A stretch of 64,000 nt of DNA from Pseudomonas argentinensis (GTDB taxonomy: Bacteria; Pseudomonadota; Gammaproteobacteria; Pseudomonadales; Pseudomonadaceae): the NCBI RefSeq assembly GCF_001839655.2, contig NZ_CP056087.1:3658001-3722000 (forward strand), read 5' to 3'. Positions 29,659 to 43,190 of the stretch are shown piece by piece. The position numbers and the translations under genes were made by a program. The notes beneath the pieces were generated by a model, which saw nothing but the letters and a program-made list of their open reading frames with translations, was not told the DNA's origin and made no database searches. How positions within the stretch are numbered: the stretch's first letter is position 1; each line of letters starts with the position of its first letter.

Positions 29659-30200
29659 GCAAGGCCGTGGCAGCACAACCCGCCTCGCCGCTGAGCCGCT
29701 TGTGGTACAAGTGGCGCTTCCACATCAATATCCTGCTGGTACTCATCCCGCTGGGGTTCATGCCCAGGTACTTCGCCGACGTCGCGCTGTTTCGTGGCAC
29801 CAGCGGCCTGGGCGAGCGCACCGTCGGCGAAGTGCCGGTCGGCCCCTGGTCGATCACCCTGGCCGAATTCCGTGCCGCGCCGCCGGAGCTCGACGGCCCG
29901 GCCGGCTACATGAAGACCTTTACCGGCGCGCTGTGCAAGGCATGCATCGGCGAGGTCAAGGCCACCTACCTGCGCATCGGCAAGCCACGCAGCCTGCGCG
30001 CCGCCGGTGGTATCTTCTTTGGCAGCGCCTACCGCATGGGCGCCACCGTGCCGCTGCCGACGCGCACCAAACCCGACGCCGAACTGTGGATCACCATGGA
30101 GGGCTGGGACGGTTCCGTGCACCAGGCCGCCGTACCGCTCGAACAGGCATCCCCATCCACGGTCGCGTGGCTGCAGAAACAACAAGGAGGCAAACCATGA
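29655..30200 (+). CDS. fpvH: FpvH-like membrane protein
   Basis: A 181-residue protein with one N-terminal membrane helix (ILLVLIPLGFMPRYF, residues about 26-42) and a periplasmic remainder. The pair of cysteines in GALCKACIGEVKATYLR (CxxC near residue 93) could hold metal or a disulfide. FpvH assists FpvG in ferripyoverdine reduction in P. aeruginosa. It overlaps both neighbours by four bases and so is translationally coupled within the operon. Confidence 0.82.
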   Translation: MSKAVAAQPASPLSRLWYKWRFHINILLVLIPLGFMPRYFADVALFRGTSGLGERTVGEVPVGPWSITLAEFRAAPPELDGPAGYMKTFTGALCKACIGEVKATYLRIGKPRSLRAAGGIFFGSAYRMGATVPLPTRTKPDAELWITMEGWDGSVHQAAVPLEQASPSTVAWLQKQQGGKP

Positions 30201-30517
30201 TCAAGTCCACTGGCCTGCGCAGCGCCGCAGGTATCGCCCTGCTGTCGCTCAGCGCCCTGGCCCTGGCCCACAACCCGATGTGCCAGTGCGAAGAAGTCGA
30301 CGGCGAGAGCATCCGCTGCACCGGCGGTTTTTCCGATGGCAGCGGCGCCGCGGGCGTGACCCTGGATGTGATCGGCTATGACGAAAGCATTCTGGTGCCC
30401 GGCAAGCTGGCCGAGGACTCCACCCTGACCTTCAAGAAGCCGGAGGGTGAGTTCTACGTGCTGTTCGACGCCGGCCCCGGCCATATCGTCGAAATCGACC
30501 ATACGGAAATCGAATGA
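30197..30517 (+). CDS. fpvJ: FpvJ-like small periplasmic protein
   Basis: A 106-residue protein with a signal peptide (cut near ALALA-HNPM) and a compact periplasmic domain with three cysteines (MCQCEEV, IRCTGGF). A strong AAGGAGG lies seven bases before the ATG, inside the end of fpvH. FpvJ acts with FpvC, FpvG and FpvH in periplasmic iron release from pyoverdine. It overlaps fpvK by four bases. Confidence 0.82.
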   Translation: MIKSTGLRSAAGIALLSLSALALAHNPMCQCEEVDGESIRCTGGFSDGSGAAGVTLDVIGYDESILVPGKLAEDSTLTFKKPEGEFYVLFDAGPGHIVEIDHTEIE

Positions 30518-31080
30518 CAGTCCAGGTCGTACGGCCGGCCGGTGCCGGCCATGAAACCCTCTACGTGCTCGTTCTTTGTCTGTTCATCGTGCTGGCGGCC
30601 GGCGCGGTGGTCGCCTGGCATGGCGAAACGGACAGCGAAACCGTCATCGCCGGCCACCAGATCGACGCCCGCCGCGACCTCACGCCGGCCGAACAGGGCA
30701 TCTACGCCGACCTGCGGGTGGCCGCCGACGAGATCCGCATCCGCCGCGACGAAGAGCAGGCGCTGCTGAGCCCCGCCGAGCTGGCCGACGAAGGCTTCCC
30801 GCCGTTCGTCAACGATGCCAGCGCCGCCAGCCGCGGCAACCATCAGTGGCAATTGCTGCCCGGTGACGGGGCCGCCTATTTCGGCGCCAGCCAGGCGCTG
30901 GACGTCGCCGGTTCGCTGCTCATGCGCCTCGATGGCGAGCAGGAGCAGGTCGACGTCTGGCTCAATCGCAACAGTGCCAGCGCCCCCGCCAGCCTCGACG
31001 CGACCGCCCTGATCGCTGCCGGCTGGCAGCAGATCGCCTCCCAGTACGACGCAGGTGTGACCCGGCAGCATCGCCACTGA
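30514..31080 (+). CDS. fpvK: FpvK-like membrane-anchored protein
   Basis: A 188-residue protein with one membrane segment (residues 16-38, LYVLVLCLFIVLAAGAVVAW) and a periplasmic domain. It contains RRDLTPAEQGIYADLRVAADEI and a Trp-rich C-terminal part (GNHQWQLLPGDGAAYFG, WLNRNS). Position and size match FpvK; it has no recognised enzymatic motif. The fpvC start follows 35 bases after the stop, the largest gap inside the operon. Confidence 0.78.
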   Translation: MTVQVVRPAGAGHETLYVLVLCLFIVLAAGAVVAWHGETDSETVIAGHQIDARRDLTPAEQGIYADLRVAADEIRIRRDEEQALLSPAELADEGFPPFVNDASAASRGNHQWQLLPGDGAAYFGASQALDVAGSLLMRLDGEQEQVDVWLNRNSASAPASLDATALIAAGWQQIASQYDAGVTRQHRH

Positions 31081-31115
31081 CACCTTTGACTCATTCGACA
31101 GAAGACCGCCCGCCC

Positions 31116-32315
31116 ATGCCCATTTCCCGCCTTTTCCGCGCACGCCAGCTGCTGTCACGCATAGGGTCTGTTCCCGTTTCACGCACGGCCGCGCCGGCGC
31201 CCGTTTTGCCGCGAGGCAAGGCACGAGCCGCGACGTTTAGTGAGCTAAATGAGCCGGCGAGAAACGCAGTATCGCGGCAAAACGAGCCCGGCCCTTCGGG
31301 TTGCGCGGGAAATCTCGCCAGGCGTCGTTGGAGGACTTGGCAAGGGAATGACCATTCCCTGCGTCCTCTGCCTCGCCTGGCGAGATTTCTCGCGGCAACG
31401 CGGCTCGCGTTGAAACGGCAACAGGCCCTAGCCATCGGCGCGACCGCCCTGCTGCTGCTCGGCGCCGCCAGCGCCGCCGACGCCAAGCTGCGCATCGGCA
31501 TCACCCTGCACCCCTACTACAGCTATGTGAGCAACATCGTCGGCGACAAGGCCGAGGTGGTGCCGCTGATTCCGGCCGGTTTCAACCCCCACGCCTACGA
31601 GCCGCGGGCCGAGGACATCAAGCGCATCGGCTCGCTGGACGTGGTGGTGCTCAACGGTGTGGGCCATGACGACTTCGCCGACCGCATGATCGCCGCCAGC
31701 GAGAAGCCCGACATCGAAGTGATCGAAGCCAACGCCAACGTGCCGTTGCTGGCGGCTACCGGCATCGCCGCCCGCGGCGCCGGCAAGGTGGTCAACCCGC
31801 ATACCTTCCTGTCGATCAGCGCCTCCATCGCCCAGGTCAACAACATCGCCCGCGAACTCGGCAAGCTCGACCCGGACAACGCCAAGACCTACACCCAGAA
31901 CGCCCGCGCCTACGGCAAACGCCTGCGCAAGCTGCGCGCCGATGCCCTTGCCCAGCTGACCGAAGCGCCCAACGCCGACCTGCGGGTGGCCACCGTGCAC
32001 GCCGCCTACGACTACCTCCTGCGTGAGTTCGGCCTGGAAGTCACCGCGGTGGTGGAGCCGGCCCATGGCATCGAGCCGAGCCCGAGCCAGCTGAAAAAAA
32101 CCATCGATCAGCTGCGCGAGCTGGACGTGAAAGTGATCTTTTCCGAGCTGGACTTCCCGTCCACCTACGTCGACACCATTCAGCGCGAGTCGGGCGTGAA
32201 ACTCTATCCGCTGTCGCACATTTCCTACGGCGAATACAGCGCCGAGAAGTACGAGAAGGAAATGACCAACAACATGAATACCGTGGTGCGCGCCATCCAG
32301 GAAGCCGGCCAATGA
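31116..32315 (+). CDS. fpvC: FpvC-like periplasmic metal-binding protein carrying an in-frame MITE insertion
   Basis: A 399-residue frame. Residues from about 105 are a cluster-9 (ZnuA-type) substrate-binding protein (HPYYSYVSNIVGDKAEVVPL, GFNPHAYEPRAEDIKRI, PLSHISYGEYSAEKYEKEMT), the FpvC iron chelator/carrier. Codons 17-105 (bases 31164-31430) are a MITE inserted within the signal peptide. Removing exactly 267 bases joins RQLLSRI to AIGATALLLLGAASAADA, a perfect signal sequence. The insertion keeps the frame and has no stop. Translation may start at ATG 31116, giving a 105-residue prefix before the hydrophobic core, or at TTG 31410 in the element's end, giving MKRQQALAIGATALLLL. Either could still be exported; this is untested. 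Confidence 0.85.
   Translation: MPISRLFRARQLLSRIGSVPVSRTAAPAPVLPRGKARAATFSELNEPARNAVSRQNEPGPSGCAGNLARRRWRTWQGNDHSLRPLPRLARFLAATRLALKRQQALAIGATALLLLGAASAADAKLRIGITLHPYYSYVSNIVGDKAEVVPLIPAGFNPHAYEPRAEDIKRIGSLDVVVLNGVGHDDFADRMIAASEKPDIEVIEANANVPLLAATGIAARGAGKVVNPHTFLSISASIAQVNNIARELGKLDPDNAKTYTQNARAYGKRLRKLRADALAQLTEAPNADLRVATVHAAYDYLLREFGLEVTAVVEPAHGIEPSPSQLKKTIDQLRELDVKVIFSELDFPSTYVDTIQRESGVKLYPLSHISYGEYSAEKYEKEMTNNMNTVVRAIQEAGQ
31164..31428. mobile_element. 265-bp MITE, copy 1, inside fpvC
   Basis: The terminal inverted repeats GGGTCTGTTCCCGTTTCA and TGAAACGGCAACAGGCCC match at 16 of 18 positions and are flanked by TA (31162-31163 and 31429-31430). It is closely similar to the 278-bp copy at 42761-43038. 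There is no transposase; TA duplication suggests mobilisation by an IS630/mariner-like enzyme. Confidence 0.88.
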
Positions 32316-33067
32316 CCGCGGCGGAAAACCTGGGCGTGAAAGCCATCGGCCCGACCCTCGACTTTCAGCAGGTCAGCCTGGTGCTAGGCCGCACCTCGAT
32401 CCTCGATAACGTGACCTTTCAGGTGCGCCCGGGCAGCGTGCATGCCCTGGTCGGCCCCAACGGCGGTGGCAAGAGTTCGCTGATCAAGACCTTGCTCGGC
32501 CAGATGCCCCATCAGGGCGCGCTCAGCCTGGAATGGCCGGGCGCCGTCGGCACCATCGGCTACGTGCCCCAGGCCCTGGAATTCGACCGCGGTCTGCCAA
32601 TGACCGTGGACGACTTCATGGCCGCCATGTGCCAGCGCCGGCCGGCCTTTCTCGGCCTGTCCAAGCATTTCAGCAAGCCCATCGACGATGCGCTGGCCCG
32701 CGTCGGCATGCTGGAGAAACGCAAACGGCGCATGGGCGCGCTGTCCGGGGGTGAGCGCCAGCGCGTGCTGCTGGCCCAGGGATTGATTCCGGCGCCGCAA
32801 TTGCTGGTGCTCGACGAGCCGATGTCGGCCCTCGACGAAGCCGGCATCCAGGTGTTCGAGCGCCTGCTCGGCGACTGGCGCCGTGCCGGCATGACCGTGC
32901 TGTGGATCGAGCACGACCTGGAAGCGGTGAAGCGCCTGGCCGACCGCGTCACCGGCCTGAGCCGCCGGGTGCTGTTCGATGCGCCACCTGCCGAGGCACT
33001 GACGCCGGAGCGCCTGCTCGGCCTGTTCTCCACCCATGCCCGCACCGTGGAGGCCGCCCAGCCATGA
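32312..33067 (+). CDS. fpvD: FpvD-like ABC transporter ATP-binding protein
   Basis: A 251-residue ATPase with Walker A GPNGGGKSS (residues 48-56), ABC signature LSGGERQRVL (about 144-153), Walker B LLVLDEPMSALDE and the switch IEHDLEAV. It powers the iron importer with FpvE. Start and stop overlap its neighbours by four bases each (ATGA), so the four fpvCDEF genes are tightly coupled. Confidence 0.92.
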   Translation: MTAAENLGVKAIGPTLDFQQVSLVLGRTSILDNVTFQVRPGSVHALVGPNGGGKSSLIKTLLGQMPHQGALSLEWPGAVGTIGYVPQALEFDRGLPMTVDDFMAAMCQRRPAFLGLSKHFSKPIDDALARVGMLEKRKRRMGALSGGERQRVLLAQGLIPAPQLLVLDEPMSALDEAGIQVFERLLGDWRRAGMTVLWIEHDLEAVKRLADRVTGLSRRVLFDAPPAEALTPERLLGLFSTHARTVEAAQP

Positions 33068-33966
33068 TCGACTATGAACAGTTCCGCCTGCTGATCCAGG
33101 GCTGGGCCTCGGCCGGCTACCTGCCCGCCGCGCTGGCCTACGGCTTCGTGGTCAACGCCTTGCTGGCCGGCCTGCTGATCGGCCCGGTGCTGGGCGGCCT
33201 GGGCACCCTGGTGGTGGTCAAGCGCTTCGCGTTCTTCTCCGAGGCGGTGGGCCACGCCGCGCTGACCGGCGTGGCCATCGGCATCCTGCTCGGCGAGCCC
33301 TACACCGGCCCCTACGGCGCACTGTTCGGCTATGCCCTGCTGTTCGGCATCCTGCTCAACTACCTGCGCAACCGCACGGGCCTGGCGCCGGATACGCTGA
33401 TCGGGGTGTTCCTGTCGGTGTCCCTGGCCATGGGCGCCAGCCTGCTGCTGGTGCTGGCCGGGCGCATCAACGTGCACATTCTGGAAAACGTGCTGTTCGG
33501 CTCGGTGCTGACCGTCAACGGCACCGACCTGCTGGTGCTGCTGGTGGTCGGTGGCCTGGTCATGGGCCTGGCGCTGCCGCTGTACAACCGTATCATGCTG
33601 GCCAGTTTCAACCCGCAACTGGCGGCGGTACGCGGCGTCGCCGTGAAGAGCCTGGATTACCTGTTCGTGATCCTGGTGACGCTGATCACCGTGGCCGCGG
33701 TCAAGGTCATCGGCGCCATTCTGGTCGGCGCCCTGCTGGTGATTCCGGCTGCCGCCGCGCGCCTGCTCAGCCAGTCGCTGAAAGGCTTCTTCTGGCTCTC
33801 GGTGCTGATCGCCACCGTCAGCACGCTGCTTGGCATCCTGTTGCCTATCGTGCTGGATCTGCCGATCCCCTCCGGCGCCGCGATCATCATGATCGCCGGT
33901 ATCGCCTTCGCCCTCGCCGCCATCGCCCGCGGCGTCGTACCAAGCTTGAAAGGGAACCTGGGATGA
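33064..33966 (+). CDS. fpvE: FpvE-like ABC transporter permease (ZnuB/MntB type)
   Basis: A 300-residue protein with about eight or nine membrane helices and the metal-permease motifs VVKRFAFFSEAVGHAALTGVA and VAAVKVIGAILVGALLVIPAAAA. It belongs to the cluster-9 ABC family of Zn/Mn/Fe importers. The ATG at 33064 overlaps the fpvD stop; an in-frame extension upstream is the shadow of fpvD. The stop overlaps fpvF by four bases. Confidence 0.92.
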   Translation: MIDYEQFRLLIQGWASAGYLPAALAYGFVVNALLAGLLIGPVLGGLGTLVVVKRFAFFSEAVGHAALTGVAIGILLGEPYTGPYGALFGYALLFGILLNYLRNRTGLAPDTLIGVFLSVSLAMGASLLLVLAGRINVHILENVLFGSVLTVNGTDLLVLLVVGGLVMGLALPLYNRIMLASFNPQLAAVRGVAVKSLDYLFVILVTLITVAAVKVIGAILVGALLVIPAAAARLLSQSLKGFFWLSVLIATVSTLLGILLPIVLDLPIPSGAAIIMIAGIAFALAAIARGVVPSLKGNLG

Positions 33967-34850
33967 CCCATCGACTCCACCAACTGGGCCTTGCCCTGCT
34001 CCTCAGCCTGCCGGGCCTGGCCCACGCCAAGGACGTCACCGTGCTGGTTTCGCAGCCGATCACCTTCGGCCTGGCCAATGCCCTGCTCGACGGCACCCAG
34101 GTGCAGATCGAGCGCGCCGCTCCGGCCAACCTGCCGGCCAGCCGCCAGGTGTCCTACTTCGCCGGGCGTGGTGCCACCGGGCTGCAGAAGGTCGCCGTCG
34201 ATGCCGACGCGGCCATCGCCCTGCGCTCGCTGTGGGCCGAAGACCCGCTCTACCCCATGGCCCGGCGCAGCAACATTCGCATCGTCGAGATCGATGCCGC
34301 CCGCCCGGTTGACGGTGCCCTGCCGGGTATCGCCATCCAGGCCGAAAGCGCCGGCGACAACGACCTGGCCAGCCATCCCTGGCTGGCGATCAACAACATG
34401 GGCCGCATGGCCGACGTGATGGCCGCCGACCTGGGGCGCCTGGCACCGGACGCCAAGGGCAAGGTCGAGCAGAACCTGGCCACCCTCAAGCAGCGCCTGC
34501 TCAAGCTCAACGCCCACAGCGAGCGCGAGCTGGCCAAGGCCGACAACCTGTCGGTGTACAGCCTCAGCGATCGCCTGGACTACCTGGTCAGCGGCCTCAA
34601 CCTCGACCTGGTCAGCAGCGACAGCCGCGATGACCGCGACTGGGATGCCGACGCCCTGAAATCACTGACCAGCGCCCTGCAAGCCGATGACGTGGCCCTG
34701 GTGCTGACCCACCGCAACCCGCCCGAGCCGGTGGCCGAAGCGGTGAAGGCCGCCGGCGTGCCGCTGCTGGTGCTGGCAACCGACAGCGACGACCCGGTGG
34801 CTGAGCTGGAAAACAATGTGGGCAATCTGGTCAAGGCGCTTACGCAGTAA
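33963..34850 (+). CDS. fpvF: FpvF-like periplasmic substrate-binding protein
   Basis: A 295-residue secreted protein (signal peptide ends near GLAHAKD) distantly related to the cluster-9 metal-binding proteins (ANLPASRQVSYFAGRGATGLQ, SVYSLSDRLDYLVSGLNLDLV, VLTHRNPPEPVAEAVKAAGVP). In P. aeruginosa FpvF binds pyoverdine and FpvC. It is the last gene of the operon and is followed by a strong terminator 24 bases later. Confidence 0.85.
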   Translation: MTHRLHQLGLALLLSLPGLAHAKDVTVLVSQPITFGLANALLDGTQVQIERAAPANLPASRQVSYFAGRGATGLQKVAVDADAAIALRSLWAEDPLYPMARRSNIRIVEIDAARPVDGALPGIAIQAESAGDNDLASHPWLAINNMGRMADVMAADLGRLAPDAKGKVEQNLATLKQRLLKLNAHSERELAKADNLSVYSLSDRLDYLVSGLNLDLVSSDSRDDRDWDADALKSLTSALQADDVALVLTHRNPPEPVAEAVKAAGVPLLVLATDSDDPVAELENNVGNLVKALTQ

Positions 34851-42577: not shown

Positions 42578-43190
42578 GGTGGCACCAGATCATGGGGTGT
42601 TCTACCAACCACTCCCTGTCGGCCCAGCAGATGCGCGGCCGTTCCGACACACGCACTTGCAAAATAGCAAAACGCCATCATGCCGCACGTTAAATAAATC
42701 TATCGTCATGATGCGAAGTGCCATGCTTTTGCAATCCATCCTGACTATTCGGCCAGTTTAGGGTCTGTTGCCGTTTCACGCACGGCCGCGCCGGTGCTCG
42801 TTTTGCCGCGAGGCAAGGCACGAGCCGCGAAGTTTGGCTGGCCAAATGAGCCGGCGAGAAACGCTGCATCGCGGCAAAACGGGCCCGGCCCTTCGGGTGG
42901 GGCCGCCTAGGTTGCGCGGGAAATCTCGCCATGCGTCGTTGGAGGACTTGGAAAGGGAATGCCATTCCCTGCGTCCTCCGCCTAACCTGGCGAGATTTCT
43001 CGCGGCAACGCGGCTCGCGTTGAAACGGCAACAGACCCTAGGGGGCACTGGCGCTTTCTCGGGCAATCTTTATCATCCGCGCGCGAGTATGGGGAACTCC
43101 AGCCCACCGCCACGGTGTCGAACCCCGAGTCCGATGTCAGGCGCGGCGCAACAGCCGCCCGGTCCCTTCACCCCATCAAAGGAACGATTG
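42578..43190. other. 613-base gap between the divergent MCP and pgm genes
   Basis: Apart from the MITE at 42761-43038 it contains no credible gene. An open frame in phase with pgm runs backwards through the MITE, but pgm has its own good ribosome site (AAAGGAACG) before ATG 43191. Confidence 0.6.
42761..43038. mobile_element. 278-bp MITE, copy 2, upstream of pgm
   Basis: Perfect 18-bp terminal inverted repeats (GGGTCTGTTGCCGTTTCA ... TGAAACGGCAACAGACCC), flanked by TA on both sides. It differs from the fpvC copy by about 13 extra bases (around GGGTGGGGCCGCCTAGG) and scattered substitutions. An internal inverted pair, AAATCTCGCC / GGCGAGATTT, gives further secondary structure. Confidence 0.9.

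Follow-up and report, generated by a model that had tools for sequence, protein, structure and literature searches.

A miniature transposable element in frame within the signal peptide of Pseudomonas argentinensis FpvC

The window analysed here is a 64,000-nucleotide stretch of the Pseudomonas argentinensis genome (contig NZ_CP056087.1, positions 3,658,001 to 3,722,000 of the forward strand); positions below count from its first letter, and other own-genome coordinates carry the prefix C1. In this window fpvC, which encodes a conserved iron-uptake protein of the periplasm, harbors a miniature inverted-repeat transposable element (MITE) inserted directly after codon 16, within the signal peptide; the element is 267 nt long counting one TA (31164-31430), contributes 89 codons in frame and leaves the gene open from ATG 31116 to the stop codon at 32313-32315, for a product of 399 residues. 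The insertion site is empty in relatives and the mature part of the protein is under purifying selection; the choice of start, the export and the cleavage of FpvC are what we infer from these observations. An original prediction, made from the letters of the window, had placed an in-frame MITE within this signal peptide, and both the open frame and the empty sites of nine relatives support it. The features concerned are the following.

31116..32315, + strand: fpvC open reading frame with the MITE in frame, 399 codons and stop
31116..31163, + strand: the 16 codons with which fpvC originally began, MPISRLFRARQLLSRI; these 48 nt align co-linearly in nine relatives
31162..31163: TA on the left, from target duplication; codon CTG in the nine relatives
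31164..31430, + strand: MITE of 267 nt with the right TA counted, adding 89 in-frame codons
31164..31181, + strand: left terminal inverted repeat, 2 of 18 positions mismatched
31410..31412, + strand: TTG codon in frame within the end of the MITE, a possible alternative start that would give MKRQQALAIGATALLLLGAASAADA; mean unpaired probability 0.12
31411..31428, - strand: right terminal inverted repeat
31429..31430: right TA
31431..31484, + strand: hydrophobic and cleavage regions retained from the original signal peptide, AIGATALLLLGAASAADA

The inserted element and its empty sites

The insert follows the TA at 31162-31163, begins at 31164 with GGGTCTGTTCCCGTTTCA and runs to AAACGGCAACAGGCCC, which ends at 31428 and is followed by the TA at 31429-31430; its two ends, GGGTCTGTTCCCGTTTCA and TGAAACGGCAACAGGCCC, are complementary at 16 of their first 18 nucleotides (2 mismatches). 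The predicted length of 267 nt or 89 codons, the TA boundaries and the 16/18 inverted repeats are confirmed, and the matching copy that had been pointed out at 42761-43038 is genuine: with its TA, it aligns to the full length of the fpvC element and reaches 280 nt through 14 added bases and one lost. The genome of this strain is a single contig of 5,076,637 bases, in which 40 of 79 first-look BLAST candidates were scored. It holds at least 61 BLAST matches to the element, counting pieces and reversed-arm matches, and in at least 18 of them the whole query (positions 1-267) is aligned with an identity of no less than 77%. Allowing up to 2 mismatches, the end motif is present 93 times and a reversed control pattern not once, so the element is not a product of chance. 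Among 59 near-full-length copies, 38 have perfectly matched 18-nt ends and 54 have 0 or 1 mismatch, the fpvC copy having 2. The element is short, multi-copy, without a transposase gene and bounded by terminal inverted repeats, with a TA duplication for which relatives provide empty sites; it is a MITE common in this Pseudomonas lineage, non-autonomous and with a TA target. The 93 ends of this genome, the only one searched for it, revealed no autonomous parent. Correctly oriented end pairs 0.5-6 kb apart number two, of 2,009 nt, which is one full and one partial MITE copy, and of 5,899 nt, whose content was not inspected. Across the genus, the peptide encoded by the MITE in the fpvC frame is detected in 84 of 298 genomes (E up to 1e-10), and four plasmid records (two from Azotobacter, one from Halomonas and one from Pseudomonas aeruginosa) carry relatives of the element at 72-75% identity. 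A phage collection searched with the element gave no match, and an Rfam scan gave four matches at E up to 1, every one under its gathering score.

For fpvC, 439 relatives were confirmed and the best 80 kept for comparison. The nine closest named ones come from P. seleniipraecipitans, P. daroniae, P. punonensis, P. straminea, P. argentinensis and four Pseudomonas sp. strains, and all nine are empty at the insertion codon: the first 48 nt of the gene align without a gap, the next codon follows directly, and the codon that reads ATA in the window is CTG in every one of them. A methionine lies 21-55 residues ahead of the mature motif RIGITLHPYYSY in each of the best 80 of the 439 relatives, and the 40 of these 80 that were displayed have ordinary leaders. 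Of the matches listed in a protein search of 57 genomes, only that of the present genome continues without a break from the N-terminus across the MITE to mature FpvC, and the protein with the insert was found on its contig only. Since the nine closest named relatives are all empty at this codon, the N-terminal extension of FpvC is, on this comparison, evidently derived and not ancestral; the comparison across relatives that had been proposed shows an uninterrupted leader in nine of nine, and an ancestral extension fails as an alternative. An assembly artefact of the repeat, the other way in which the insertion might have been illusory, is judged unlikely because the genome is in one contig and the fpvC copy carries four bases unique among the 32 copies of its length class.

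Selection, start choice and export

Over the 275 codons of mature FpvC, the lineage of the window has accumulated 16 synonymous and 0 non-synonymous changes relative to six of the nine relatives (a count that omits L031, L032 and L036), each of these six having 4-11 synonymous and 0-4 non-synonymous private changes of its own. Relative to all nine relatives, the own-lineage changes are 8 synonymous and 0 non-synonymous, which argues that the gene has been kept under selection; mature FpvC bears the mark of purifying selection, and this selection probably persisted after the insertion as well. The age of the insertion can be approached through the element itself: the fpvC copy differs from the consensus of ten close copies at 14 sites, and four of those bases are private to it within its length class of 32 copies; each changes an amino acid and none makes a stop. 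If all four postdate the insertion, a disused gene would be expected to show 9.3 amino-acid or nonsense changes, where 0 are seen (P ~9e-5); the probability of seeing 0 is 0.009 if two of them do. This dating assumes that the private bases arose at the fpvC locus itself rather than in some unsampled source copy. The ends of the insert, with 2 mismatches against the 0 or 1 of 54 of 59 copies, suggest that the insertion is not brand new.

The most probable course of events, which we favor with moderate confidence, is that the MITE is read through from the native ATG and that the original signal still directs export and is cleaved, leaving mature FpvC periplasmic. The entry point of the MITE would have been a CTG/CTA leucine codon where the n-region of the signal peptide meets the h-region, and the insertion is so far seen only in this lineage. 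The MITE's length of 3 x 89 nt and its stop-free frame GGG TCT GTT... would be the reason why fpvC stayed open. Ribosomes starting at the native ATG would then traverse the MITE to give a 399-residue preprotein with a highly basic cytoplasmic n-region of 105 residues, including the 89-residue arginine-rich insert; the original hydrophobic stretch would act as an internal signal, signal peptidase would cut at the original site, the MITE-encoded peptide would be discarded together with the signal peptide, and an ordinary mature FpvC would arrive in the periplasm. The only in-frame ATG, GTG or TTG codons between 31116 and 31440 are ATG 31116, TTG 31206 and TTG 31410. The native ATG is the better supported start as judged from predicted pairing, because its region is accessible (mostly unpaired, 0.68) whereas TTG 31410 is paired (0.12) and lacks a real Shine-Dalgarno sequence; the Shine-Dalgarno sequence of the ATG is weak (-1.0 kcal/mol), the same as in four relatives tested. 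From the native ATG, the n-region holds 20 K/R and 4 D/E, and the original hydrophobic segment remains the strongest within the first 130 residues. The prediction of an N-terminus lengthened to about 105 residues or an alternative start, rather than of an ordinary knockout, stands, with the native ATG the better supported of the two.

Several points weigh against this reading. A basic n-region of 105 residues is far from that of a normal signal peptide and may slow export, and the structured element (both ends pair when it is folded as RNA with its flanks, z -6.84) may lower the translation of fpvC. The bulk of the selection signal could predate the insertion, since the probability of seeing 0 changes reaches 0.10 if just one private change postdates it, and the private bases were compared position by position within one length class. 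In the parallel small gene described below, the product differs from its nearest homologue, that of G168, at 4 of 35 residues. Finally, the AlphaFold model is weak (mean pLDDT 54, from 18 sequences) and was not used; it places residues 1-85 under pLDDT 50 and forms a single helix over residues 86-119.

An unlikely alternative is that the insertion is recent and damaging, FpvC being poorly made or unexported and the pyoverdine iron-release pathway weakened or being lost. A split signal peptide, a very stable hairpin added to the mRNA and an abnormal n-region would all fit such damage, as would the fact that the insertion is seen in no other strain, and P. aeruginosa FpvC is reported to be among the proteins needed for efficient iron release (PMC6954188). 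Yet neither the element nor the gene contains a stop or a frameshift, the 275 mature codons show 0 own-lineage non-synonymous changes next to intact fpvD-F, and the end mismatches speak against a brand-new insertion.

Rather doubtful is the proposal that TTG 31410, in the right end of the MITE, has become the start, with the inverted repeat supplying the n-region (MKRQQ) of a complete, shorter signal peptide. This TTG is in frame, and its product, MKRQQALAIGATALLLLGAASAADA, is a predicted, complete-looking signal peptide in which a positive n-region precedes a hydrophobic core and the cleavage site is the original one; in terms of Shine-Dalgarno pairing, the native ATG is no better served (-1.0 as against -1.7 kcal/mol). 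However, the TTG has no real Shine-Dalgarno sequence and sits in the end hairpin, no sigma-70-like promoter is found in 31000-31560 (0.1 expected by chance; other promoter types not covered), and the equivalent codon in the parallel small gene of this genome is CTG. That the MITE-encoded peptide of 89 residues has acquired a role of its own, for example in membrane targeting or regulation, is very improbable: its frame is open and the same peptide stands in frame in three other genes, but the four fully private changes of the fpvC copy all alter amino acids, and the codon-position variation across 32 copies and the ratio of non-synonymous to synonymous polymorphism (pN/pS) give no sign of coding selection.

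The element in other genes and its open frame

Besides fpvC, at least three Pseudomonas genes hold the MITE in the same frame, and all three have homologues in which the site is empty; annotated proteins were searched with the peptide of this frame alone. The closest parallel to fpvC is a small gene of the same genome.

C1:3988297-3988668 (locus, L013 and L232): own-genome small gene with the MITE after codon 3, the MITE copy being C1:3988402-3988668

Its open reading frame runs AGGAGGCAGC ATG TTC CTA, then through the 89-residue MITE peptide, then NVVVLAGIGTVALMILFGAGFTYFVWKDARKNKPQ and a stop; the MITE lies directly ahead of a hydrophobic segment and the frame is open through the MITE into that segment. 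The end of the product matches 5djq chain N over 36 residues (E 6.8e-9), which we take to be CcoM, the small subunit of the P. stutzeri cbb3 oxidase. Without the element, in 7 of 7 other genomes searched, the gene reads ATG TTC and a third codon, followed by the hydrophobic segment. Four of these seven read TTC TTA GAT, which places the insertion at the TA of a leucine codon. Read-through from the ATG is the simplest route to this product, because CTG, an uncommon start, here replaces the TTG 31410 of fpvC. The two other cases lie in annotated proteins: P0003, an ABC transporter of P. flavescens, has 89 extra residues within its ABC domain, and its homologue in G185 (252 residues) is without them and otherwise 98% identical; in P0002, a hypothetical protein of Pseudomonas sp. 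CNPSo 3701, the MITE peptide stands between LALLE and LGADEI, and the homologue in G168 (180 residues) has CTAGGC at the insertion site.

Such cases are few. The MITE peptide occurs in 0 of 503 candidate proteins of 550-1750 residues, and the 54 candidates of 88-280 residues gave 5 matches (P0002, P0005, P0006, P0007 and P0008). Of these, P0002 is a true in-gene case, P0006 resembles an intergenic frame, P0005 is not a convincing in-gene case, and P0007 (157 residues, presumably GNAT-like) ends inside the MITE peptide and is probably a gene broken by the element. P0004, which ends in what is presumably the N-terminus of release factor 2, is not convincing either and probably an annotation artefact. 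Among 80 distinct flanked copies, in-gene, in-frame insertion is convincing in 2, fpvC and the small gene; a separate flank test for in-gene copies is blind near gene starts, and a scan of the 80 copies near starts returned these two and one further, unconvincing frame (L144). Several G001 copies have long stop-free frames of 192 to 577 codons on their upstream side; these were read as antisense or intergenic frames of GC-rich DNA and set aside.

The open frame and the length divisible by three are properties of the element class and not adaptations to fpvC. Exactly 267 nt is the length of 32 of the 59 near-full-length copies regardless of location, and adaptation of this length to fpvC is rejected on that count. 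The frame GGG TCT is stop-free in 14 of the 59. In first-order Markov resamples a given frame is open in 20% and at least one of the six in 72%; as composition alone opens a given frame this often, the open frame needs no selection. Coding selection on the element is itself rejected by codon-position variation and pN/pS: the entropy over 32 copies is 0.456, 0.328 and 0.346 for codon positions 1-3, and pN/pS in the fpvC frame (0.77, 11 copies) falls between those of the other two forward frames (0.47 and 1.37).

The target has consequences of its own. In 80 distinct copies from several genomes, the flanks read CTA|G in 33 and TTA|G in 12. A CTAG target within a gene would be in frame either as CTA, followed by GGG TCT, or as xCT AGx, the third phase giving a stop codon. 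Where coding sequence runs right up to the element, 16 of 19 gene ends are in the phase in which TA and the G of the element form TAG (80 copies, best of six frames); the element thus often sits in the stop codon of its neighbour, restoring TAG. This positioning is seen at L179, L007, L184 and others; at L179, L184 and L167 coding sequence lies on both sides of the element, in the stop-codon phase. At two other loci, L214 (presumably a LysE-like gene) and L181 (presumably SbcC-like), the reading frames of the genes continue in phase 0 across the border of the element and close with an 18-residue tail that the element encodes.

In both N-terminal cases, fpvC and the small gene, the arginine-rich peptide precedes a hydrophobic segment, which is where, by the positive-inside rule, a basic cytoplasmic tail would be expected to be tolerated. 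A broader and distinctly speculative extension, which we rate as improbable, is that this element class is a mobile in-frame peptide cassette: a length divisible by three, a stop-poor frame and the CTA|G preference would provide in-frame entry at leucine codons and harmless entry at stop codons (TAG being restored), and insertion would be tolerated chiefly in the N-terminal tail before a signal or membrane segment, the arginine-rich peptide obeying the positive-inside rule and, in fpvC, the end of the element perhaps furnishing a working start and n-region. If so, the end of a transposon would serve as the beginning of an exported protein.

Comparison with known repeats and the fpv locus

In-frame fusion of MITE-like repeats is already established, from the Rickettsia palindromic elements (RPEs) and the enterobacterial RU-1 and RU-2. 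RPEs are short palindromic repeats that contain a peptide-coding frame; they occur in intergenic DNA and also as in-frame fusions within conserved protein genes, and the one enzyme tested with an RPE, a guanylate kinase, is active with a changed substrate affinity (PMC2229807, PMC10969869). The present MITE resembles them in its in-frame presence in protein genes as well as between genes. Like RPEs, it is fused in frame in several unrelated genes (fpvC, the small gene, P0003 and P0002). By comparison with RPEs, which measure 105-146 bp and of which nearly half of those first reported lie in genes, it is 267 nt long and most of its copies lie between genes rather than a large share within them. 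ERIC (RU-1) is likewise small and mobile, with open frames that form part of the reading frame of some genes (PMC2229807, PMC2759123), and differs in length (127 bp), sequence and hosts. Another close precedent is YPO1552, whose predicted signal peptide is described as partly formed by RU-2, a Yersinia palindromic sequence (PMC2759123). YPO1552 is a putative exported protein of 144 residues, whereas FpvC belongs to a known pathway as a conserved binding protein of the periplasm; its original signal is split, and relatives provide empty sites. Among the titles and abstracts listed for Pseudomonas MITEs in signal peptides, for these ends and for MITEs in these hosts, none reports this element, subscription papers being mostly outside that scope.

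With the fpvC insertion, a Pseudomonas MITE joins the few elements found in frame inside genes. The case is a clean one, since relatives have empty sites, of a conserved protein being lengthened by a mobile element with no evident loss; it shows how a transposon can hide within an annotated protein. The tail ahead of a signal or membrane segment seems naturally able to accept an inserted peptide, and in FpvC the limits that Sec export sets on the length and basicity of the n-region can be tested directly.

The identity of the gene rests on its mature part and on its neighbours. PF01297 (ZnuA-type) covers FpvC residues 130-393 with 199 bits, and the closest solved chains, 6ru4/6r3z, which we take to be P. 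aeruginosa FpvC, match residues 124-398. The likeness to P. aeruginosa FpvC lies in this match of the mature part and in the fpv gene order, and the difference in a leader longer by 89 residues. Among the own-genome matches listed, none is a close FpvC paralogue, the others being 26-30% identical. The neighbouring genes agree with the fpvGHJK-CDEF arrangement described for P. aeruginosa (PMC6954188).

28471..29658, + strand: fpvG-like reductase gene, PepSY_TM
29702..30517, + strand: open reading frame in the position of fpvH/fpvJ, without a Pfam match
30514..31080, + strand: fpvK-like gene, DUF6162
32312..33067, + strand: fpvD, ABC ATPase
32902..33966, + strand: fpvE, ABC-3 permease, mechanically called open reading frame with a provisional start
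33963..34850, + strand: fpvF, second ZnuA-type binding protein
42761..43040, + strand: second MITE copy, intergenic and 280 nt long, with ATG 43191 about 150 nt downstream

Each of fpvD, fpvE and fpvF has its expected Pfam domain, and the claim of an open frame followed by intact fpvDEF holds, with the 399-codon open reading frame ahead of them. The siderophore-synthesis marker PF13434 has a best own-genome match of 383 bits; it is weak evidence of siderophore synthesis, since 12 of 14 control genomes match as well.

Some further copies deserve mention. From TTG 42768, inside the second MITE copy of the window, a mechanically called open reading frame extends through that of ATG 43191, presumably a pgm-like gene. 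Elsewhere in the genome, some MITE copies (C1:4958530-4958892, 3610868-3611229 and 1031525-1031871) are split by an internal segment beginning GTGTGACCCACATGGATGTGGG, apparently a second repeat nested inside. Four 53-nt TA-bounded elements amount to barely more than the two inverted ends of the MITE.

C1:899799-899851, 4388814-4388866, 4516933-4516985 and 4797410-4797462: 53-nt end-only elements, own genome
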